This document shows, piece after piece, positions 37,749 to 47,920 of a stretch of DNA of 47,920 nucleotides. Numbering within the stretch: the stretch's first letter is position 1; each line of letters opens with the position of its first letter. Source of the DNA: an uncultured Prevotella sp. Its GTDB lineage: Bacteria > Bacteroidota > Bacteroidia > Bacteroidales > Bacteroidaceae. Both the position numbers and the translations under genes were made by a program. The notes beneath the pieces are model-generated. The model made no database searches. It worked only from the letters and a program-made list of their open reading frames with translations, and was not told where the DNA came from. The stretch spans positions 1-47,920 of the forward strand of contig ONCJ01000026.1 in NCBI GenBank assembly GCA_900316295.1. The letters run 5' to 3'.

Positions 37749-40700
37749 ATGGCAGATATACCTATATCGTCCCACTTTTTTACTAACCGAGGTGGGAACA
37801 CATTGATGAATGAGTTTGAGGGGATACTTGAGAACAACCCTCAGGTAAAGAACCTTGATGCCGTCGTTGGATTCCTTCGTGCGTCGGGCTATTTTGCTTT
37901 GCGCCCGTTCTTGGATGGTATCAATAAGGTGCGCATCCTTATTGGTATCGATGTGGATAAATACATTGCTCGTGCCCATCAGAAAGGCATGCTGTTTATG
38001 GGTGCCGAGGAAGAAGTGAAGGAAGAATGTCTGCAACTCTTGAAGAAAGACATCGAGCAGTCGCATTATAATAAAAAGGTAGAGGACGGCATGCTCCAGA
38101 TGCTCCAGGATATGATTGACGGCAAGTTGGAACTGCGCGCCCATCCTTCGAAACGCATACATGCCAAGTTCTACATTCTCTATCCTGACAATTTCAATCA
38201 ACATACCTTCGGCGCAGCCATCACGGGTAGCAGCAATCTCAGCGGCAATGGTCTTGGCATCGGCGAAGACAAGCAGTACGAGTTTAATGTGAAGCTGACG
38301 CAATACGAAGATGTTGCTTTTGCCCGTCATGAGTTTGAACTGCTTTGGGACGAGGCAAAGAATGTTGCTATCGACGCAGAAGACTTCAAGGCAACTCTTG
38401 ACGATACGTATGTGAAAGAAGATGTGTCGCCCTACGAGCTCTACATTAAGATGCTGATGGAATACTTCTCCGATCGTGTCTTGGCAATTGACAACGACGA
38501 TCCATTTGATATGCCCGACGGCTATTCGAAGTTGGAGTATCAGACAGATGCCGTCATCGAGGGCTATCAGAAACTGATACGCTACGATGGTTTCTTCCTT
38601 GCCGACGTGGTGGGTCTTGGTAAGACGGTCATTGCTACGATGATAGCCAAGAAGTTCCTAATTGAGAATGGTCGCGACAATACTAAGATACTGGTTGTCT
38701 ATCCACCTGCCGTTGAACAGAACTGGAAGACAACGTTCAAAGACTTTGATATAGACAAGTATGCCCGTTTCGTAACGAACGGCAGTCTGTCGAAAGTCCT
38801 TGACGATGACAACTACGACTATTGGAATGCCGATGAATATGATTTGATACTTGTCGACGAGTCGCATAAGTTTCGTACCCATACCACAGGTGCCTTCCAG
38901 CAGCTACAAGAGATTTGTAAGATGCCACGCATCAACAAGGGTAATATTCCCGGATATAAAAAGAAGGTGATGCTTATCTCTGCTACTCCGATGAACAATG
39001 CTCCTGTTGACTTGTACAATCAGATTCTGATGTTCCAAGACCCTCGCCAATGTACCATCGACGGTGTGCCCAATCTCACGGCTTTCTTCTCTCCCTTGCA
39101 GGTGGAGTTCCGCAAGTTCCGTAAGCAGGACAATTTCGACATCAAGCAGTTTAAGAAACTGGCTGAGAGAGTGCGCGACAGGGTCATCAAGCCTCTTACC
39201 GTTCGTCGTACCAGAACAGACATCGAGGGTATTCCGCGCTATACGAAAGATGTGAATGGATTCCCTAAAGTGGCAGACCCCATCAAGAAGGAGTACGAAC
39301 TGAACCCACATCTTGCCAGCCTTTTCGACGAGGCAATGAACATTTTGGACAAAAGCCTCAACTATGCGCGCTATAAAGCCATCGCTTACTTGAAGCCCGA
39401 AGCGGCTCCTGGACTCTACGACAACGCAGAACTGATCAGCCGCAGCTTGGCAGTCATACGCAAGAACGGAATGGTAAAACGACTGGAGAGCAGTTTCTAT
39501 GCCTTCAAGATTTCCGTCGAGAACTTTCGTCAAGCCAATCAGAATATGATTAGCATGTGGGAAAACGACAAGATTTTCATCGCTCCCGATATGGATATCA
39601 ACAAACTCTATGAGATGGGGTATTCCGATGACGAGATAGAGGAGAAACTGAACGAGAAGGCAGAAGATAATCCGAAGAATGCAGTCTTTGAACGTGACGA
39701 CTTTCAACCAGAATACGTCGAGCTACTGCGCCAAGACCAGGAACTGCTCGACCACATGTGGTCACAATGGGAAAACATCGACGATGATGATGACTCAAAA
39801 TTTGCCAAGTTCGAGGAGCTCCTTGATAGTGAACTATTCAACAGCGACAAGAACCTTGAAGGTAAGTTAGTGGTATTCTCAGAATCGGTTGATACCATAG
39901 AATATCTGTCGCGTCGCATCCATCGCGACGATGTGATGGTTATCTCTGCCAAGAATCGCGACCAGCAGTTCAAGACCATACGCGAGAACTTCGATGCCAA
40001 CTGGAAGCAGCAGAAGAACGACTATAACATCATCCTTACTTCCGATGTGTTGGCAGAAGGTGTGAACCTGCATCGTTCCAACATCATCATCAACTACGAT
40101 ACTCCTTGGAACTCAACCCGTCTGATGCAACGCATAGGTCGTGTCAATCGTATTGGCTCTAAGTCGGACACCATCTATAATTATGTGTTCTATCCTTCGC
40201 GTCAAGGCAACAAACAAATCAAACTCAACCAGATTGCTTTGAGCAAGATACAGACTTTCCACACCACGTTTGGCGAAGACAACCAGATCTATTCAACAGA
40301 CGAGATTATAGACCGTGATTTGGATAAACTGTTCAAGGAGGGAATCAAGAAAGAACAGGAAGACCGCAACCTGGAACTGCCGTTCTATGAGGAGTTGCGC
40401 TCACTTTACCAGCAGAACCGTAAGGAGTACCAACGCATAGAAAAACTATCTCTGCGCAGTCGTACTGGAAGAGAGAAACGAGAAGTGGAAGGCACCTTGC
40501 TTGCCGATTCAACCCTTGTATTCCTGAAGACTAACTTCCGCAAGTTGTTCTGTCTTGTCAACGACCAAACGGCAAGTGAATTATCTGTGCTTGATGCTCT
40601 CAAATATTTCAAGGCTACACCAGAAGAAAAGGCCGTCGCAAGAATAGAACGGCATCATGACCATGTTGAGAAAGCTGTGAAGAGTTTCCATATAGCCAAG

Positions 40701-41069
40701 GTGAAAGAGATGCAGGAAGAGGAAACCAATCAGAACCAACGTAGCAACCTTGGTGCTCAGGTGACGACAGCTGTCAGCCTTATCAACAGCATGTTGCCAC
40801 ATGTGCAAGACGATGAGGTGTATGTCAAACTGGTACAGTTGAAGAAACTGACAGAACGAGGTACCATCACCCTTATAGCCAAACGCTTGCAACGCATACA
40901 AAAAGACCTGATGCGTCAAGGTGGCAGCAAGGCAAAGATGACCTTCGACGAAGCCCTGAAACAGGTACTCATGATGGCAGACAAGTATAACGCCTACTAT
41001 CGGGACACACAAAAGGCAGAAGAGGAATCGGAGCCAACCATCATCCTCTCCGAGAGTTTTCAATCATGA
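37749..41069 (+). CDS. PLD-nuclease/SNF2-type helicase fusion of a restriction-modification-like system
   Basis: A 1106-residue protein. Residues about 1-180 form a phospholipase-D-like nuclease domain with one HxK motif, IHAKFYI (His138, Lys140), followed by TGSSNLS; a single motif implies a dimeric active site. A superfamily 2 helicase follows: Walker A GLGKT (289-293), DESH (370-373), SAT (411-413), and the late LAEGVNLHRSNIII with QRIGRVNRIG. The C-terminal 230 residues are helical and unassigned. It is followed after 36 bases by the adenine methyltransferase gene. The pair therefore resembles a translocating restriction system in which this subunit cuts. It differs from DISARM, where the PLD protein and helicase are separate genes. 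Codon use is like the host backbone. Confidence 0.85.
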   Translation: MADIPISSHFFTNRGGNTLMNEFEGILENNPQVKNLDAVVGFLRASGYFALRPFLDGINKVRILIGIDVDKYIARAHQKGMLFMGAEEEVKEECLQLLKKDIEQSHYNKKVEDGMLQMLQDMIDGKLELRAHPSKRIHAKFYILYPDNFNQHTFGAAITGSSNLSGNGLGIGEDKQYEFNVKLTQYEDVAFARHEFELLWDEAKNVAIDAEDFKATLDDTYVKEDVSPYELYIKMLMEYFSDRVLAIDNDDPFDMPDGYSKLEYQTDAVIEGYQKLIRYDGFFLADVVGLGKTVIATMIAKKFLIENGRDNTKILVVYPPAVEQNWKTTFKDFDIDKYARFVTNGSLSKVLDDDNYDYWNADEYDLILVDESHKFRTHTTGAFQQLQEICKMPRINKGNIPGYKKKVMLISATPMNNAPVDLYNQILMFQDPRQCTIDGVPNLTAFFSPLQVEFRKFRKQDNFDIKQFKKLAERVRDRVIKPLTVRRTRTDIEGIPRYTKDVNGFPKVADPIKKEYELNPHLASLFDEAMNILDKSLNYARYKAIAYLKPEAAPGLYDNAELISRSLAVIRKNGMVKRLESSFYAFKISVENFRQANQNMISMWENDKIFIAPDMDINKLYEMGYSDDEIEEKLNEKAEDNPKNAVFERDDFQPEYVELLRQDQELLDHMWSQWENIDDDDDSKFAKFEELLDSELFNSDKNLEGKLVVFSESVDTIEYLSRRIHRDDVMVISAKNRDQQFKTIRENFDANWKQQKNDYNIILTSDVLAEGVNLHRSNIIINYDTPWNSTRLMQRIGRVNRIGSKSDTIYNYVFYPSRQGNKQIKLNQIALSKIQTFHTTFGEDNQIYSTDEIIDRDLDKLFKEGIKKEQEDRNLELPFYEELRSLYQQNRKEYQRIEKLSLRSRTGREKREVEGTLLADSTLVFLKTNFRKLFCLVNDQTASELSVLDALKYFKATPEEKAVARIERHHDHVEKAVKSFHIAKVKEMQEEETNQNQRSNLGAQVTTAVSLINSMLPHVQDDEVYVKLVQLKKLTERGTITLIAKRLQRIQKDLMRQGGSKAKMTFDEALKQVLMMADKYNAYYRDTQKAEEESEPTIILSESFQS

Positions 41070-41070
41070 A

Positions 41071-41100
41071 TTATCAATTGTAAATTATCAATTATCAATT
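41071..41100 (+). repeat. AATTATCAATTGT-type intergenic repeat between helicase and methyltransferase
   Basis: The whole spacer is made of AATTATCAATT/AATTGTAAATT words. The same word series occurs inside the methyltransferase gene at 42014-42048. Confidence 0.7.
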
Positions 41101-41105
41101 AACCT

Positions 41106-44100
41106 ATGGACTACAGACCTATCATCGAATCTAGATACAATCGTGAGAACTGGCAGCAACTGCTGCATGACATCTTCGGACGCAAAGTAGAGTTCTGGCG
41201 CACACCGTCAGTCGTGTCAACCAATAGTCAGTTTGCCCGTCAAGCCCTTTGGCTGGGTACTATTACGTTGAGTGATGATCAGACCATCTCTATCTATGAG
41301 GTGGAACTATCCGATAGTGTTGATATTGAACGTAATCGTCGAGGCATCCGTGATATGTTGCTCACCCAATGGCGCAACAATGGAAATGCTGGAGCCTTTA
41401 TGTTCTGCTATCGTAAGAACGAAAGCGTATTACGTTTCTCTTATGTTAGCGAGGCTTGGACGTTTGCCGATGATGGAACGTACCAAAAGGAGTCAACCGA
41501 TACCAAGCGCTTCACCTATCTTTTAGGTGAGGGGCATCGCAGCCGTACGGCTATCCAGCAATTCGAGAAGCTGCGTGATAGTAGTCTTACGTTGAAAGAC
41601 CTGACGAAAGCGTTCTCTGTAGATGCTGTCAGCGATATGTTCTTCGATGGCTACAAGAACCAGTACGAGGACATTATTCAGTATGTCACAGGCAAACGAA
41701 TGGTGAAGAAAGGCAATAAGTGGGAAGAAGAAATCAAGAACGACCCCTGCGAGGAAATCATGCAGGAGTTTGCACAATTTCCTAACCCAGAGAAGGCTGT
41801 CCGCGACTATGTGAAGAAACTCATGGGTCGTCTCGTATTCCTCCAATTCTTGCAAAAGAAAGGTTGGTTGGGTGTACCCGTACATGCAGAGTGGGGAGCA
41901 GGTGATGCTGAGTTTATCCAGAATCTTTTCGCTGAATGTGAAGACAAAGACCACTTCATAGAAAATGTTCTTGAAGTCCTATTCAATGACCTCAACACAG
42001 AGCGCAAGGATGATAATTCTCAATTGTCAATTTTCAATTATCAATTAAAAGTGCCTTATCTCAACGGAGGCTTGTTCGAGCGTGATGCCACAGACGAGAC
42101 GGAATTCCCTCTGCCAGCCAAATATATGCAGAGCCTGCTTGACTTCTTTGCCTCGTATAACTTCACCATCGACGAGAACGATCCTGACGATGCAGAGGTA
42201 GGTGTTGACCCAGAGATGTTAGGCCGGATCTTTGAGAACCTGCTGGAGGACAACAAGGACAAAGGAGCCTTCTACACACCAAAGGAAATCGTCAGCTATA
42301 TGTGTCGCGAAAGCCTCATTGCCTATCTCCAGACAGATATAGAAGACGAAGCTACCAAAGAAGCCATTCGCCAGTTTGTAACCACTCATGATATCAATGC
42401 TCTTGGTACTAACGACAAATTCCGTGAGCAAGTGGATGAAGCTCTTAAGAACGTCAAAATCTGCGACCCAGCTATTGGCTCTGGTGCTTTCCCAATGGGC
42501 TTGTTGAAAGAACTCTTCCAATGTCGAACAGCCCTTGAAGGCTTAGACCAAAGCAAAGCAGCAGAAATCAAGAAGCACATCATCCAGCAAAATATCTATG
42601 GAGTAGATATAGAGAAAGGTGCAGTAGATATAGCACGTTTACGTTTCTGGCTCTCACTCATAGTAGATGAAGAAACACCACAGGCTCTGCCAAACCTTGA
42701 CTTCAAGATTATGCAGGGCAACTCACTACTTGAGCAATACAAGGGTGTTGATTTGTCCAATATAACAGAGTTAAAGCAAGACAAGGTCGGAGCTTATCAA
42801 ACCACCATGTTTGATGATATGCTTGATGTATTGCGTCTTGACCTGCGAAAGAAACTCGACGAATACTATAGTTGTCCCGACCACAAAAAGAAAGCCATCT
42901 TGAAAAAAGACATTATTAATAATGTAAAGCAACAACTCAGGGAACAGAGTATCAATATTGATTTTGGCAATTTAGACCTTGCAGGCAATGACCAGTTCAT
43001 GCTTTGGCATACTTGGTTCTATGATGTGTTCTCACATGGAGGATTTGATATAGTAATTGGAAATCCTCCTTATAATGAGCTTCGAGATTTATCCGATGAT
43101 TTCCAAATACTTTATAAAAAATCACCTTATTTCAAATATGCACAAGGAGGAAGAATAAACATGTTTCAATACTTCTATCCTCTAAGTAGCAATATTTTAT
43201 CAGAAAATGGAATATGTTCACTAATCACTCAAAACTCACTATTGGCAGAAGATAGTGCGCTTAATAACAGAAAACTATTCTTTGAGAGATTCAAAATATG
43301 TGCAATTGATTCTTTTCCTGAAAGAGATAATGTAAAACTTAGAGTATTTGAATCTGCCAAGATGAGCGTATGTATTTGTTTGCTACAAAAAAGATCAATT
43401 ATAGATGATAGTTTTGATATCCATGTATGGAAAAGTAAATACATGAATGCAGGTCATGTCCTTTCTTTGAAAAAGAAGGATATACAGAGTGTCTATCCTG
43501 ATGATTTGATTTTCCCCATTTGTAATAAAGAAGGATGGCAACTTCTTTTGAAGATGAAAGAACATTCTGATTTCATTATTATTGCTCAGGCAGGTGAAAT
43601 TGATATGACAAAATATAAATCTCTGTTTTTACGTTCAAACTTGAATGGAGAGCAACGAGTAATTACAGGAGCTCAAATATTAAGATATAAGATAACCGAC
43701 ACACCATCTCAAGGAGGTCTTGTATATCTAAAACCTAGTATGGTTAAATTGACAAATGACAGAATAGAATCTGTATCAAGAAAAAGAATCGTTACGCAAA
43801 GAATTACAGGAGTTGATTCAAGAATTCGTATAATATCCACATTGGCCCCTGCTAATATTTACTGCGCAAATTCCACCAACTACATTAGTCCAACAAAGAA
43901 TAATGTAGATTTGAAATATCTTTTAGGCATATTGAATTCTAAGTGCGTAAATTTCTTTTTTAAACAAACTAGCACAAACACGAATGTAACAGGAAAAGAG
44001 ATAGCAAAATTTCCGATACCATTAACAAATTCAAGTGCTCGAGATGCTATTATTGAAAAAGTTGAATGTATCTTATCCAAGAAAAGGAACTATAATTCAG

Positions 44101-44198
44101 AAGATACTTCCGCTTTGGAATCCGAAATCGATCATCTTGTATATCAGCTCTATGGCCTGACGGAAGAAGAAATAAAGATAGTTGAAGAGACAAGTTAA
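41106..44198 (+). CDS. Eco57I-type N6-adenine DNA methyltransferase (modification/specificity subunit)
   Basis: A 1030-residue class I SAM-dependent DNA methyltransferase. Motif I is DPAIGSG (454-460) and the catalytic motif IV is NPPY (653-656), so it should methylate adenine N6. The N-terminal ~300 residues (IYEVELSDSVDIERNRRGIR) resemble the N-terminal domain of Eco57I-like enzymes. The C-terminal ~370 residues should be the target-recognition domain. It ends in the family-typical SEIDHLVYQLYGLTEEE. Two oddities stand out. An AATTGTCAATT-type intergenic repeat is inserted in frame at about 42014-42048 (SQLSIFNYQLK). Sequence from about 43040 onward is visibly more AT-rich than before, so the recognition half looks like an import. 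It is paired with the upstream PLD-helicase. Confidence 0.88.
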   Translation: MDYRPIIESRYNRENWQQLLHDIFGRKVEFWRTPSVVSTNSQFARQALWLGTITLSDDQTISIYEVELSDSVDIERNRRGIRDMLLTQWRNNGNAGAFMFCYRKNESVLRFSYVSEAWTFADDGTYQKESTDTKRFTYLLGEGHRSRTAIQQFEKLRDSSLTLKDLTKAFSVDAVSDMFFDGYKNQYEDIIQYVTGKRMVKKGNKWEEEIKNDPCEEIMQEFAQFPNPEKAVRDYVKKLMGRLVFLQFLQKKGWLGVPVHAEWGAGDAEFIQNLFAECEDKDHFIENVLEVLFNDLNTERKDDNSQLSIFNYQLKVPYLNGGLFERDATDETEFPLPAKYMQSLLDFFASYNFTIDENDPDDAEVGVDPEMLGRIFENLLEDNKDKGAFYTPKEIVSYMCRESLIAYLQTDIEDEATKEAIRQFVTTHDINALGTNDKFREQVDEALKNVKICDPAIGSGAFPMGLLKELFQCRTALEGLDQSKAAEIKKHIIQQNIYGVDIEKGAVDIARLRFWLSLIVDEETPQALPNLDFKIMQGNSLLEQYKGVDLSNITELKQDKVGAYQTTMFDDMLDVLRLDLRKKLDEYYSCPDHKKKAILKKDIINNVKQQLREQSINIDFGNLDLAGNDQFMLWHTWFYDVFSHGGFDIVIGNPPYNELRDLSDDFQILYKKSPYFKYAQGGRINMFQYFYPLSSNILSENGICSLITQNSLLAEDSALNNRKLFFERFKICAIDSFPERDNVKLRVFESAKMSVCICLLQKRSIIDDSFDIHVWKSKYMNAGHVLSLKKKDIQSVYPDDLIFPICNKEGWQLLLKMKEHSDFIIIAQAGEIDMTKYKSLFLRSNLNGEQRVITGAQILRYKITDTPSQGGLVYLKPSMVKLTNDRIESVSRKRIVTQRITGVDSRIRIISTLAPANIYCANSTNYISPTKNNVDLKYLLGILNSKCVNFFFKQTSTNTNVTGKEIAKFPIPLTNSSARDAIIEKVECILSKKRNYNSEDTSALESEIDHLVYQLYGLTEEEIKIVEETS
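42014..42048 (+). repeat. Intergenic-type repeat lying in frame inside the methyltransferase gene
   Basis: Consecutive CAATTGTCAATT and TTCAATTATCAATT words encode SQLSIFNYQLK between DDN and VPYLNGG. The word is that of the spacer at 41071-41100. Confidence 0.75.
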
Positions 44199-44237
44199 TG
44201 TAAAAAGTTAAAAGACCACGGACTTATTTAAGTTCGC

Positions 44238-44269
44238 TTTGGAAATGTCGAAATAATTATCTATCTTTG
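44238..44269 (+). promoter_or_regulatory. Promoter of the AT-rich cassette genes
   Basis: TTTG (44238-44241), a 20-bp spacer and TATCTTTG (44262-44269) match the consensus. GGAG follows seven bases before the ATG at 44286. The cassette thus has its own transcription start, independent of the methyltransferase. Confidence 0.8.
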
Positions 44270-44285
44270 CAAAAAAGGAGAGCAT

Positions 44286-44609
44286 ATGATACAAAACAAA
44301 TTTGTCAATACTCTCATAATTGAGAGGATAAAACGAGAGATTCCAAGTAGTATGGGGCAAAAGTTGCATTCGTATCAGGAAAACAGAATGCAATGGCTCT
44401 ATTACGGCGCACTTATTTATCAAGAGCAGAATGAGTTAAGACGCTTAGGCCTGAAAGCATGGCAGGGATACTATTCTCTATACGATATGGCATCCAGCGA
44501 GAAGCACCACAAAGCATTAAGCGAATACCAAAACGAACAATTCAAATATTTCCGCTCCATGTGCTGTGATGTATTGGATATCTGTAATGATTTGTTTTCG
44601 GAGTCCTAA
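44286..44609 (+). CDS. Hypothetical protein, 107 aa, first gene of the cassette
   Basis: I do not recognise a family. The protein is soluble and mostly helical by residue pattern, with many aromatic residues (QWLYYGALIY, WQGYYSLYDMASSEKHH) and no signal peptide or membrane segment. It has the best expression signals of the cassette: a consensus promoter at 44238-44269 and a GGAG ribosome site. It starts 87 bases after the methyltransferase stop and is followed by the DUF2971 gene. Base composition is AT-rich like its neighbours. A role in defence, or as a small partner of the following gene, is only suggested by location. Confidence 0.65.
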   Translation: MIQNKFVNTLIIERIKREIPSSMGQKLHSYQENRMQWLYYGALIYQEQNELRRLGLKAWQGYYSLYDMASSEKHHKALSEYQNEQFKYFRSMCCDVLDICNDLFSES

Positions 44610-44676
44610 TCAAACATGGGAGAGGCATAATAATGATTGAGCTATATGGTCCTAAGAATATTGAAATATTTTGTCT

Positions 44677-45357
44677 ATGAAACTTTACCACTTCACCAAC
44701 TTGGATAGTTTCCTAAAAATTTGGAGACACCAACACATTCTGTTTTCGACATCACATAAAAGAACAAATAATGATATATTAGAAAAACAAAAGTATATCA
44801 CTATAACAGGTGATGCTATTTCTGTAAATAGAAGACATATGGATGCGTTTTGGGAAAGCCTTGATAGGTATAAGCAAATCAGTTTAACAATGGACTATAA
44901 GGATTGTCGTGGCTGTTTATCACCAATGATGTGGGGACAGTATGCAGATAATGCCAATGGTGTTTGTATAGAGTTAGACTATGACAAATTATTATATTCC
45001 GGAGGCAAGATATGGGCAAATAAAATAGTATATAAGAAACAACATCCGCAAGTTACGATAGATGCAGAGACCATAAAAGATTGTTCTGCGCACAATGAGT
45101 TTATAATCAAAAAACGGAATGCGATATTTTTCAAAAAACACAAGCATTGGAGCAACGAGAATGAATTTAGATTAGTTTCTAAAGATTGTACCTATGTAGA
45201 TATATCTAATGCAGTTGTCGCAATATATGTGTACAATCAAAAGGGCCATACCGCATATGTTGTAAGAAAAATTGTGTCGGATGATAGGAAAGTAAACTAC
45301 TTAATCGCAATTCCTCAAGAAGGAAATATGACGCTTTCTTCCGTACCTTTCAAGTAA
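44677..45357 (+). CDS. DUF2971-family protein
   Basis: 226 residues. The N-terminal LYHFTNLDSF, the central MMWGQYADNANGVCIELD (84-101) and the later HWSNENEFRLVS (157-168) are the three conserved blocks of DUF2971. This family is often found in defence or mobile regions; its biochemical activity is not established as far as I know. The arrangement of an N-terminal YHxT, a middle aromatic block and ENEFR is reminiscent of ADP-ribosyltransferase-like folds, but that is speculation. The start is ATG 44677. No signal peptide; cytoplasmic. AT-rich. It lies between two unknown small genes in the same direction. Confidence 0.75.
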   Translation: MKLYHFTNLDSFLKIWRHQHILFSTSHKRTNNDILEKQKYITITGDAISVNRRHMDAFWESLDRYKQISLTMDYKDCRGCLSPMMWGQYADNANGVCIELDYDKLLYSGGKIWANKIVYKKQHPQVTIDAETIKDCSAHNEFIIKKRNAIFFKKHKHWSNENEFRLVSKDCTYVDISNAVVAIYVYNQKGHTAYVVRKIVSDDRKVNYLIAIPQEGNMTLSSVPFK

Positions 45358-45457
45358 GTTAATGATTTATGAATGTGTCTTGATGTCAAGGGACAGTTAA
45401 TTGATATCAATAGTGTGACTATACAAAAAGGAGTATAACATATTAAATATTTTCTCA

Positions 45458-45790
45458 ATGAAATTAGATATATTTCTTGACTACTACAAACCGCTTGATT
45501 CCAAAATGAAAATAGACAAGTTGTTTGAACTTTGTTTCAAAAGTAAGCATCAGCCAATGCTCGAAACTGATTTGTCTAAAATAGTGGATGTTACTATTGA
45601 AGACATTAAACCGTATTTATTTGAGAAAAAAGCAGAATTGGATAGATATATAGATCAATTAAAGAAAGTGAGAAAGAAACGTGAAAAGCTAAAGAAGAAA
45701 AGAGCAAAAAGAAGCAGACATTCACCATCAGTGTATAACAAAGATGAAATAGTTTATAAGCGAATACACATCATTAGTACAGCCATGTAA
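45458..45790 (+). CDS. Hypothetical basic protein, 110 aa
   Basis: Not recognised. Residues 1-60 look like a small helical domain (IDKLFELCFKSKHQPML, DLSKIVDVTIEDIKPYL). Residues 60-95 are a long Lys/Arg-rich helix (KKVRKKREKLKKKRAKRSR), which would suit nucleic-acid binding. The last 20 residues are less charged. There is no signal peptide. Upstream, AAAAAGGAGTATAAC supplies a GGAG, but it is over 20 bases before the ATG, so the start is uncertain. AT-rich, same strand as its neighbours. Confidence 0.5.
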   Translation: MKLDIFLDYYKPLDSKMKIDKLFELCFKSKHQPMLETDLSKIVDVTIEDIKPYLFEKKAELDRYIDQLKKVRKKREKLKKKRAKRSRHSPSVYNKDEIVYKRIHIISTAM

Positions 45791-45840
45791 AGTTCTTCGG
45801 GATTTGGATGGTTCTAAAAAACAGCAATATATAGTTCTAT

Positions 45841-47703
45841 ATGACTCAATACCCCTCTATCTCCATTACTACATTCCACGATGTTGAAGTCATCGTAAGA
45901 TTCTTTGAAGCTAATCGTGGCTCCTACGATCATGTCGTGGAGAGTTGGATAAGAGATAATATAGGAGAAGATAAAGAAATCCTTGACTATTATTCTCAGC
46001 AAATGAACAACACTATTACCAATTATTGGATGATAGCAAGCACAAGAACTAAAGTTTTTAATCGGCGGCATAGGGAGAAATTTGACAAGAGGATAAAGAG
46101 ATTTGAAGATTTGGTATTAAAACTCAATACCTTTAAGCAAGAGTTCGAGGCAAAGACTGTATCTATGACTATCGCAAAACAATGGGTTTACAAAGTAGTT
46201 TCTTTACCCCAACCTTTTGCATCTTTACTCGTCTTAGGTTTGTTAGAAGAATTTCGAGTCACTAACGTTGAGCAATGTAAAGAAGGTGATTTTATCTATG
46301 TTTATGCTACAGAAATGACACAGGAAGCAAAGGAGAAGTTGTGGTATGACAATAACATTTATGGGAAATTCTACAATGCTCTTGAAATGGGGAATCTGCC
46401 TAATGAGCTTCCAATAAATGCATATATCGGACAGTTTAGAATTAAGGATTATAGGCCATACAGAAAAGTTGGAATAGATAAGGCGCTGGTATTTGACAAT
46501 CCCATCATTTGTGATTTTAATGAGATGCCAAAGTTTATAGCAACTTATTCACGCCACCAAGCCCCAATCAAGAACATAAGATTTAGAAACCGCATTATTG
46601 AAGTGCCTCTCTCTGAAGAGAATTGGGAGAATTTGGACAACATGAAAGATGAATTCTTCTTATATTGGGAGGAAGACTATAACCAGTTTTGTTCTATGTG
46701 GGGCAGTAAAAAAGATGAGCAAGGTCTTTATGACATCATATTTTACAATGGGCCAAACAGAAAGCGCTATAAACAATTAGATAACCAGGCGGTTCTTTGT
46801 AATGTTAGAAAGGACAAACAGACTAATCTAGCATTTTACGTTTTAGAGTTTTATTTTGAGTATATTGAAGAAAGAAAAGAAGTAGATAATAGCTCATTCA
46901 ATATCCTACAAAAGAAGGATTGGATATTGGATTGGAACTGTGTAAGATTTAAGGATGGATATATCGTAGTGTCTGCGCCATTGGATGATAGCGTGAGATT
47001 TAAGACAAAAGCATTCCCGCTGAAAGGTTCTATGGAAGCTTTCAATTATCTAAAAGACTATCTGAACGACAGACTGGCACCTGTCCATTGCACAGTTGAG
47101 AAGATGGATATAACCATTTACGATCAAATCAGATTGAGCGAGGCCATTCAAACATTTGCCAAAGCAGTCAGGCAAAAAGGGGTGCAGGTGGCAAAGGCTG
47201 CTAAAGGACCAGTAAGAATAGTCCCACAGCAATCATCATTCAAAAGAGCGTTATCTAAGGCGGAGGAAATGACTCCTGAGGAGTTCCAAAAATATAAGTC
47301 ACAGTACATAGACTATTTGGTGAGTCTGCAAAGAAAAGATATTAAAATCATTCCTTGTGTGGAGCGACTGGCTCATTCAACAGGAGATATGTTTGAAACG
47401 GCCTTCATGTTTACAGTAAATTGTAAGAACGGAAACATGCTAATAATTCATGAGAACGTCAATCCTTCGAGATCAACATTGTTGTTTGAGGTGAAGAAAC
47501 AAGATATCATGAATACCATCCGCGCCATCTATGATTTTTTGCAGAGTGCAGAGATTAACAAGCGAAGCAGTTTGAGGAGTAAAGACTTGGATATTGATAA
47601 TGATAACATCATAAAGTATCGCTCGCTGAACCATGACTACTTTTCCAGTTGGAAGGCTTCACTACTGTATTATCGAGGATATAGGGACTCTATCTATTGG
47701 TGA
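45841..47703 (+). CDS. ASCH-domain-containing large protein of unknown function
   Basis: 620 residues, last gene of the cassette. Residues about 117-215 have the form of an ASCH domain: VVSLPQPFASLLVLGLLEEFR, then EGDFIYVYA, and LPINAYIGQFRIKDYRPYR at its end. ASCH domains bind RNA or modified bases. The N-terminal 110 residues are helical. Residues 215-440 are unassigned. A C-terminal region (from about 500) contains TLLFEVKK, which resembles the E-x-K strand of PD-(D/E)xK nucleases but without a clear partner Asp. There is no signal peptide or membrane segment. The stop codon TGA shares its last two bases with the first codon of the methyltransferase remnant at 47702, so the gene ends exactly at the cassette junction. 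Confidence 0.7.
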   Translation: MTQYPSISITTFHDVEVIVRFFEANRGSYDHVVESWIRDNIGEDKEILDYYSQQMNNTITNYWMIASTRTKVFNRRHREKFDKRIKRFEDLVLKLNTFKQEFEAKTVSMTIAKQWVYKVVSLPQPFASLLVLGLLEEFRVTNVEQCKEGDFIYVYATEMTQEAKEKLWYDNNIYGKFYNALEMGNLPNELPINAYIGQFRIKDYRPYRKVGIDKALVFDNPIICDFNEMPKFIATYSRHQAPIKNIRFRNRIIEVPLSEENWENLDNMKDEFFLYWEEDYNQFCSMWGSKKDEQGLYDIIFYNGPNRKRYKQLDNQAVLCNVRKDKQTNLAFYVLEFYFEYIEERKEVDNSSFNILQKKDWILDWNCVRFKDGYIVVSAPLDDSVRFKTKAFPLKGSMEAFNYLKDYLNDRLAPVHCTVEKMDITIYDQIRLSEAIQTFAKAVRQKGVQVAKAAKGPVRIVPQQSSFKRALSKAEEMTPEEFQKYKSQYIDYLVSLQRKDIKIIPCVERLAHSTGDMFETAFMFTVNCKNGNMLIIHENVNPSRSTLLFEVKKQDIMNTIRAIYDFLQSAEINKRSSLRSKDLDIDNDNIIKYRSLNHDYFSSWKASLLYYRGYRDSIYW

Positions 47704-47812
47704 ATCCGAAATCGACCGTCTCGTCTATCAGTTGTATGACCTGACCTACGATGAAGTCCTCATCGTAGCCCTAGAGACACCAATAACAAGAGAAGAATAC
47801 GAAAAAGAATAA
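47702..47812 (+). pseudogene. Orphan C-terminal remnant of an Eco57I-type methyltransferase
   Basis: Codons read ESEIDRLVYQLYDLTYDE, continue with VLIVALETPITREEYEKE, and end in TAA. The first part matches the end of the intact methyltransferase (ESEIDHLVYQLYGLTEEE, from 44118). The 14 bases GAATCCGAAATCGA are identical at 44118 and 47702; beyond that the two copies differ at many positions, so this is a diverged allele and not a fresh duplication. No start codon of its own. Best explained as the original 3' end of the gene, left behind when the recognition domain and cassette came in. Confidence 0.8.
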
Positions 47813-47830
47813 GAAAAACCAGAGGATCAA

Positions 47831-47858
47831 AGAACCGTCCAGTGATTCAAAAGGTTCT
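47831..47858. terminator. Hairpin between convergent gene ends
   Basis: AGAACC (47831-47836) pairs with GGTTCT (47853-47858) between the methyltransferase remnant and a minus-strand gene. There is no strong T-run on either side, so a terminator role is uncertain. The same GGTTCT/AGAACC arms form a hairpin at 37682-37699 before the helicase. Confidence 0.4.
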
Positions 47859-47864
47859 GTATGC

Positions 47865-47920
47865 TTAATACACAGGCTTCACCACTTCCACCCTCATTCC
47901 AAGGGCTGCAATGATACGAT
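47865..47920 (-). CDS. Partial gene, C-terminus only; possibly a helix-turn-helix regulator
   Basis: The minus strand reads RIIAALGMRVEVVKPVY and a TAA at 47865-47867; the rest is outside the window. The pattern xRIIxALGMxVEVV is common at the end of Xre-type DNA-binding proteins and antitoxins of Bacteroidetes. Only 18 codons are visible, so this is a weak call. Confidence 0.4.
   Translation of the reverse strand, partial: RIIAALGMRVEVVKPVY

Follow-up and report, generated by a model that had tools for sequence, protein, structure and literature searches.

Probable exchange of a recognition domain and of downstream cargo on either side of a conserved methyltransferase tail in Prevotella

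At the right end of a 47,920-base contig of an uncultured Prevotella sp., an adenine methyltransferase gene is followed by cargo genes and then by what reads as a second, diverged methyltransferase end. The contig (G000:C50), which belongs to a draft genome, was analysed in its entire length and is termed the window here; its sequence ends at position 47920, and its right end holds a helicase gene, the methyltransferase gene, four AT-rich genes and 111 bases of this second end. With moderate confidence, which applies to all parts of the reading taken together, we regard the locus as a defence-type system of PLD-helicase and methyltransferase whose methyltransferase is a three-part mosaic: the recognition domain would be exchanged to the left of a short conserved tail and the cargo to its right, with each insertion of cargo stranding the old tail. 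If this is true, the tail would act as a recombination anchor that tolerates insertion and loss, offering a simple physical reason for the pile-up of defence genes behind restriction-type methyltransferases. Stranded tails would then be readable scars, by which past changes of cargo could be counted in genome data and which could guide the way to new defence genes. An earlier note on this DNA had joined the change of specificity and the change of accessory cargo in one event; the present reading separates them.

The helicase (37749..41069, plus strand) is a conserved core gene of SNF2 type with a PLD domain (Pfam Helicase_C, 9.5e-17, and SNF2-rel_dom, 3.5e-8; PADLOC C3a139 'HKD+Snf2', 9.5e-42). 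Its amino acid identity is 81-85% in L032, L033, L036, L037 and L049, which are loci among the window's relatives, mostly rumen Prevotella/Prevotellaceae assemblies. The methyltransferase open reading frame (ORF) at 41106-44198 encodes 1030 amino acids and is assigned by Pfam to the Eco57I-type adenine methyltransferases, with a TaqI-like specificity domain. Its conserved N-terminal half (41106..43058, plus strand), the putative left homology arm, shows 64-90% amino acid identity in seven relatives and 78-90% in five close ones. The presumably exchangeable recognition-domain segment (43059..44117, plus strand) opens at the NPPY motif (43062-43073) and includes the TaqI_C specificity domain (residues 852-971). 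The current tail (44118..44198, plus strand; class EEEIKIVE) starts with GAATCCGAAATCGA at 44118, is 79-88% identical at the nucleotide level to its best matches among the tails of relatives and constitutes the junction and presumed homology anchor. In their domain types, the core genes match known systems of a PLD/SNF2 helicase and an Eco57I-type methyltransferase (DISARM DrmD/DrmMI, Hma, type IIG); unlike those named systems, they give NCBIfam matches far below the curated cut-offs. Against DISARM DrmD, the helicase scored 142 bits at a cut-off of 610, and none of the four cargo genes, g1 to g4, matched a drm model in PADLOC. The window's helicase and methyltransferase are a related but unnamed two-gene core.

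The left border of the exchanged part is sharp. In six of six comparisons with relatives, DNA identity drops from 80-90% in the 60-nucleotide bin that closes at 43058 to 45-53% in the bin after it, which supports the earlier proposal of recombination in conserved methyltransferase sequence. Related loci carry differing recognition domains between conserved flanks, as exchange of target-recognition domains requires, and the closest of 62 other domains compared is only 39% identical to that of the window (L095). As far as sequence comparison can show it, the recognition domain has been exchanged by recombination between NPPY and the conserved last ~35 codons. The methyltransferase had also been described as turning AT-rich near NPPY, and GC content in 200-nucleotide bins does fall at about 43,000, from 0.42-0.475 at 41,000-42,799 through 0.375 at 42,800-42,999 to 0.31-0.34 at 43,000-44,399. 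As a sign of a recent swap this drop was rejected, because each of the eight relatives checked shows it as well, with a GC content of 0.30-0.37 after the N-terminal part and 0.39-0.47 within it.

The stranded tail occupies 47702..47812 on the plus strand. It begins at GAATCC, its first two bases being overlapped by the TGA stop of g4, and stays in frame to a stop of its own: translation from 47702 gives ESEIDRLVYQLYDLTYDEVLIVALETPITREEYEKE, with the stop at 47812. It scores 58.6 bits with nhmmer, and intact tails of relatives reach 81-85% nucleotide identity to it. When 47690-47920 was used as query, homology to intact tails started at 47702 in many matches (L060, 81.7% over 115 nucleotides; L046, 81.7% over 104 nucleotides); the match to the intact tail of L109 (85.4% over 89 nucleotides) starts further into the stranded tail, and other tails of this class show 73-82%. 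The earlier claim of a diverged methyltransferase end resuming at 47702 is borne out by these matches, and the stretch is a genuine methyltransferase end that belongs to no separate gene. Tails of two classes are frequent, '...YGLTEEEIKIVEE', which is that of the window's active gene, and '...YGLTYDEVLIVDPETPITREEYEK', which is that of its relic. The latter class (TYDEVLIV..ETPITREEYEK), in the form 'LTYDE(V/I)LIVDPETPITREEY', closes the intact methyltransferases of L070, L084, L108, L109, L111, L113 and L115.

Because the current and stranded tails are only 73% identical over 63 nucleotides, they represent different alleles and not a fresh duplication; a fresh target-site duplication was rejected on this ground, no long near-identical duplication being present. 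Short identical direct repeats do exist at both ends. The 14-mer GAATCCGAAATCGA, reported previously at both junctions, was confirmed at 44118 and 47702 and found nowhere else in the window on either strand, but these repeats lie within conserved coding sequence. The 14-mer is exact in 11 of 55 intact tails and reads as a conserved coding block, not as a duplicated insertion site. A deletion between the window's two tails would, by computation, give an open methyltransferase frame of 1040 amino acids without internal stops, so loss of the cargo need not harm the enzyme. A further relic that was suspected by eye between g1 and g2 (ELYGPKNIEIF) was not detected by nhmmer and is not claimed.

Relatives were collected with a profile of the N-terminal half, of which the best 80 loci were taken with up to 10 kb on each side; together with the window and L033 this gave 82 loci, 70 of them with a closed methyltransferase ORF and 63 of these with at least 1 kb downstream. 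In two, comparison shows an apparent displacement of the tail with the old neighbour gene retained. L082 has an in-frame stranded tail, then 8 nucleotides, then a gene termed c0, which trails the intact methyltransferase by 10-11 nucleotides in L054 and L059. L033 has a stranded tail, homologous intergenic DNA and g1, that is, the order of intact tail and g1 seen in the window, L067 and L071. For the window itself, we infer displacement by incoming cargo from these two relatives. In a further census, a nucleotide profile built from intact tails was searched against 449 kb lying downstream of methyltransferases and 512 kb lying upstream, at a threshold of at least 12 bits. On the same strand it returned 15 hits downstream, one upstream and none in shuffled sequence; another 7 downstream hits have the opposite orientation. 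The 15 same-strand hits fall in 14 of the 70 loci, and about seven stranded tails are well supported (the window, L033, L071, L075, L079, L082 and L099).

Recognition domain and cargo do not travel together as a rule. Among 59 loci, we counted a recognition domain as shared at an identity of at least 55% and cargo as shared when a downstream family, c0 excluded, recurred within 4 kb. Only one of the 33 pairs with a common recognition domain also had cargo in common (L103-L105), against a mean of 1.13 after shuffling of labels and 57 of 1,678 among non-sharing pairs. The identity of the N-terminal halves in the 33 pairs ranges from 42 to 93%, i.e., the same recognition domain is found in loci that differ outside it. 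Eight of nine settings at which the test was repeated gave no excess, and the strictest (15 pairs, 8 kb) gave 3 versus 0.75 (P 0.034). The test has power, because loci with more closely related N-terminal halves do have cargo in common more often (9 of 697 pairs at 40-60% identity versus 9 of 52 at 90% or above). In eight of ten profiled pairs with a common recognition domain, DNA identity was ~40-53% in the first 60 nucleotides past the stop codon, and the tail is therefore a frequent junction on both sides. From the event that the earlier note had proposed, the new recognition domain from NPPY onwards, the exchanged downstream genes and the displaced 3' end thus remain, and the joint movement of the domain and four genes as one cassette finds no support as a rule; g1, g2 and g3 also occur behind methyltransferases with other recognition domains. 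Conservation of the whole arrangement in distant strains, which had been named as speaking against an exchange, was not found in the relatives. In the window's own lineage, a one-step exchange may nevertheless have taken place.

The four AT-rich genes that the earlier note had placed behind the methyltransferase were found as ORFs, all on the plus strand. The product of g1 (44286..44609; 107 amino acids) has no significant family; homologues come right after the tail of the methyltransferase in L067 and L071 (68%), and one follows the stranded tail in L033 (50%). The DUF2971 protein encoded by g2 (44671..45357; Pfam DUF2971, 1.7e-10; PADLOC candidate PDC-S31, 5.6e-16) has homologues (36-37%) in L064 and L069, where they immediately follow the methyltransferase. 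A lysine/arginine-rich protein of 110 amino acids without a confident family is encoded by g3 (45458..45790), with homologues in L067 (83%), L071 (81%), L068 (68%) and L082 (56%). All these homologues of g1, g2 and g3 accompany recognition domains other than that of the window. The largest gene, g4 (45841..47703; 620 amino acids), belongs to no known family; neither Pfam nor PADLOC nor PDB returned a match within the limits applied (PDB: E 0.1). Homologues of g4 are present in stretches that, within the length fetched, contain no helicase or methyltransferase match (e.g., L146, L147 and L152). Since g4 also persists as a remnant, with its last ~113 codons in L037/L080 and its first ~30 codons in L067 in front of a tail joined to a repetitive extragenic palindrome (REP)-like repeat, cargo appears to be gained and lost piecemeal. 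A SIR2-like protein, whose Pfam score is slightly below the cut-off, is cargo in L082. From g2 and the cargo of relatives, we consider the cargo to be probably accessory defence or toxin–antitoxin genes. As to mobile carriers, g4 had no match among 72,556 records of plasmids and 50,697 of phages, and none of 67 pattern matches of the methyltransferase N-terminal half in viral contigs was confirmed.

The c0 family, which lies downstream of the methyltransferase in 24 loci (L082 9795-10466 and 23 others), comprises proteins of about 223 amino acids. The three members scanned had no Pfam match, and c0 is sometimes accompanied by a relative of ~110 amino acids; it is possibly a third part of the system.

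These comparisons suggest the following course of events. The stable part of the locus would be the helicase and the N-terminal half of the methyltransferase, and the junctions would fall at NPPY and within the final ~35 codons. Incoming DNA would recombine in methyltransferase sequence: an exchange from NPPY to the tail would alter specificity, and one that starts in the tail would bring cargo, rebuild the gene end with the incoming allele and leave the resident end behind the cargo. The cargo may often arrive with an allelic methyltransferase tail of its own in front. The simplest anchor would be homologous recombination between tail sequences, of which a genome has copies at several loci; REP-like repeats may help or mark it. 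In the reverse direction, a deletion between two in-frame tails would drop all four genes and leave a full-length methyltransferase. We infer the exchanges from comparison, and enzyme activity, dependence on RecA and a role of the cargo in defence are likewise presumed.

Tails also occur away from the locus. The tail profile matched in 122 of 398 genomes of the genus, and many of the matches listed have open frames of 20-150 amino acids. We term orphan tails the 70 hits with an open frame of at most 200 amino acids, which lie in 64 of the 71 stretches examined (L236 is the same place as L071). Several stand in series or beside other methyltransferases. L149 (5280-8948, minus strand) reads g4 relic, tail, NYN-domain gene, tail, HicA/HicB, tail, with the first and third tails nearly identical. 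In L187, a methyltransferase of another family (N6_N4_Mtase) is followed by three tails with small genes between them, one encoding an HTH protein, and in L190 an MmeI-like methyltransferase precedes a DUF4268 protein, an 86-amino-acid ORF and a stranded tail. Speculatively, and with a limited chance of being right, the methyltransferase 3' end in Prevotella-type genomes could be a reusable docking site, at which allelic tails serve as interchangeable cassette ends without a known integrase. Cargo would then be stacked, excised and moved between defence loci with the reading frame always complete, and REP-like repeats, joined at the same codon to tails of different classes, would be the mobile ends of the system.

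As an observation in its own right, a dispersed REP-like repeat to which a piece of methyltransferase tail is joined at one and the same codon (mostly GAATCC) is found in several genomes of the genus (L193, L196-L199, L201, L203, L213, L214, L218, L229 and L234). Such fusions could mean a target preference of the REP, one old fused repeat or later exchange of tails.

The right end of the window contains a REP-like motif, and part of this end recurs on a second contig of the genome. The REP-like motif GAACCGTCCAGTGATTC (letters of the plus strand) lies at 47832..47848 on the minus strand, 19 nucleotides behind the stranded tail, and is 92% identical over 25 nucleotides to a repeat in L240; similar motifs adjoin tails in other genomes. 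At 47865..47920 on the minus strand follows the 3' end of an antitoxin gene cut by the contig end, with up to 99% DNA identity to complete genes in other genomes, which from its sequence we take to be an XRE-type (HigA-like) antitoxin. The nine places fetched for the flank 47800-47920 show this gene beside other DNA, in many contexts. In the same genome, the end of contig G000:C28 matches 47714-47920, with 86% identity over the first 86 nucleotides and 99% over the last 121, the final 99 nucleotides being identical. Such a jump in identity within the tail, from 86% to 99%, would be expected of recombination there; a mixture of strains could also produce it. The C28 copy is a second diverged tail near an HsdM-like type I modification gene (opposite strand, below the curated cut-off). 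Altogether, the tail profile gave five matches in G000 at E <= 0.01: three are clear (active gene, relic and C28 copy) and two weak, one in a 522-amino-acid frame and one in a 51-amino-acid frame. The window and C28 contigs stop at the same base, resembling an assembly fork, and these shared ends suggest that the window's right neighbour is a repeat or a strain variant.

The orphan tails bear on two other origins of the relic. A REP-like motif directly precedes 18 of the 70, ending at the same point and joined to different tail classes; 17 start at model position 8, and 14 of these 17 are REP-flanked. In L185, moreover, a REP-associated tyrosine transposase (RAYT)-like gene, below its curated cut-off, adjoins the tail, and an ORF 81% identical to it is likewise placed in L192. 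Along with the motif 19 nucleotides behind the window's own tail, this pattern would suit a tail that reached its place behind g4 as part of a dispersed REP/RAYT-type repeat, which had earlier picked up a methyltransferase end. We consider this origin rather unlikely for the window, where no REP motif matched upstream of the stranded tail (as compared with the 18 of 70), the tail is of full length and stays open up to its own stop, and the genome's five profile matches do not suggest a large family; L082 and L033, in addition, display displacement with the old neighbour retained. The 14-bp direct repeats at both ends, the 3'-end target, the reconstituted gene end and the start position shared by 17 orphan tails recall a site-specific integrative element, inserted in the 3' end of the gene with attL/attR at GAATCCGAAATCGA, and g4, being without a known family, could hide an integrase-type function. 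Such an element appears extremely improbable: Pfam, PADLOC and NCBIfam recognised no integrase or transposase in the cargo or elsewhere among the six genes of 37749-47703, the cargo varies between loci, the repeats belong to diverged alleles (73%), and g4 is matched in neither the plasmid nor the phage records. The recurrent GAATCC start is weakened as proof of a site-specific system by the REP flanks of 14 of the 17 orphan tails concerned.

Two further explanations concern the history of the locus as a whole. We hold it to be decidedly unlikely that a single allelic exchange delivered all four genes along with the recognition domain and the EEEIKIVE tail, since domain and cargo are unlinked over the 59 loci, g1, g2 and g3 recur in varied combinations behind other recognition domains, and AT-richness is common to all eight alleles checked; it would, on the other hand, account for two junctions within methyltransferase sequence and an entirely AT-rich stretch, and L103-L105, which have domain, tail and downstream DNA in common, indicate that joint movement or joint inheritance does occur. 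The relic could also be the remainder of a second complete methyltransferase that once lay downstream and was later deleted, in keeping with the methyltransferase fragments that adjoin methyltransferases in L042 and L047. Those fragments, however, are on the opposite strand, the direct relics examined hold little or no recognition domain, and in L082 the relic is followed by c0 at normal spacing, which renders this history very improbable.

Several observations weigh against separate exchange of recognition domain and cargo at the tail as the source of the arrangement. The genomes compared are mostly drafts, largely metagenome-assembled genomes, and the contig ends 108 nucleotides after the relic in sequence common to C28; a search of 398 genomes with 47800-47920 found no empty allele of the window's flank. 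Joining unrelated cargo DNA to GAATCC at the right-hand junction needs a pre-existing donor tail or another activity, and the many tails of the genus that abut REP-like repeats at the same nucleotide make a transposon-type route possible. Within the census, L061, L067 and L093 have REP-like flanks, L056 and L098 are weak, L094 is better read as a broken gene and L116 as a silent cassette, and the stranded tail of L082 is immediately preceded by the short REP-like string ACGGTTCTTT. Nor is the independence of domain and cargo complete: L103-L105 share recognition domain, tail and downstream DNA (85-100%), and L095-L098, which both carry c0, keep 52-72% identity past the stop. Finally, no clear enrichment of defence genes by Pfam and PADLOC was apparent around orphan tails in 55 stretches, in which 114 ORFs (70-1000 amino acids) less than 700 nucleotides from a tail were compared with 112 ORFs more than 2.5 kb away. 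The Pfam families DUF4160 (four times), DUF2442 and HTH_3 (three times each) and PIN_3 (twice) were found near tails, none of them among the far set's best 25 of 80 families; the numbers of PADLOC models matched were similar (298 near, 267 far), and the far set also holds defence genes.

Separate exchange at the tail has partial parallels. Where genomic islands integrate in the 3' end of a gene, the incoming copy restores the gene end, and the former end comes to lie beyond the island. The window resembles them in both respects and differs in that no integrase was recognised, the cargo genes are few and small, the target is a defence-type methyltransferase and the ends are diverged alleles. 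Restriction–modification genes can also insert with a long target duplication, so that the insert is likewise bordered on each side by a copy of one gene segment; the window's copies are only 73% identical. In Helicobacter pylori, according to the available text of two reports (PMC3077401, PMC3983042), the recognition domains of Type I S, Type IIG S and Type III Mod genes move by recombination at conserved flanks. As far as that text goes, the rest of the gene stays in place, as in the window, and the conserved coding flanks exchange the domain only, whereas the right flank in the window, the gene tail, also borders the cargo zone and leaves stranded tails. Exchange of recognition domains at conserved flanks is established, and the apparent novelty lies in a methyltransferase tail that would itself border the cargo and leave stranded ends: among the titles and abstract openings returned by a literature search, none reports methyltransferase tails left stranded or an exchange of cargo at the 3' end of such a gene.

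Some relatives of the locus depart further from the window. Shufflon-like relatives with invertible recognition-domain cassettes resemble it in having extra methyltransferase ends near the active gene, but their tail copies are on the opposite strand and accompanied by a gene cluster with a serine recombinase in L118, in contrast to the window's direct copy without a recognised recombinase. No inverted silent cassette or recombinase was recognised among the six genes of 37749-47703, and nhmmer found no opposite-strand tail downstream. Seven loci (L114, L116, L118, L119, L121, L123 and L131) carry opposite-strand methyltransferase segments downstream, with tail hits in the first six, and share a gene cluster, represented in L118 by a serine recombinase (Resolvase, 1.3e-33); they are probable invertible specificity switches. 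What looks like a wrecked copy of the locus is present in L041/L126 (433-5335), where a helicase fragment (residues 7-309) and other genes precede a piece of the methyltransferase (151-456) that runs straight into a tail. Lastly, in comparisons of the window's methyltransferase with L067, L071 and L069, a second patch of low identity (37-77% per 60-nucleotide bin) appears ~1,440-1,200 nucleotides before the stop, inside the otherwise conserved N-terminal half, and may mark an extra exchange segment.

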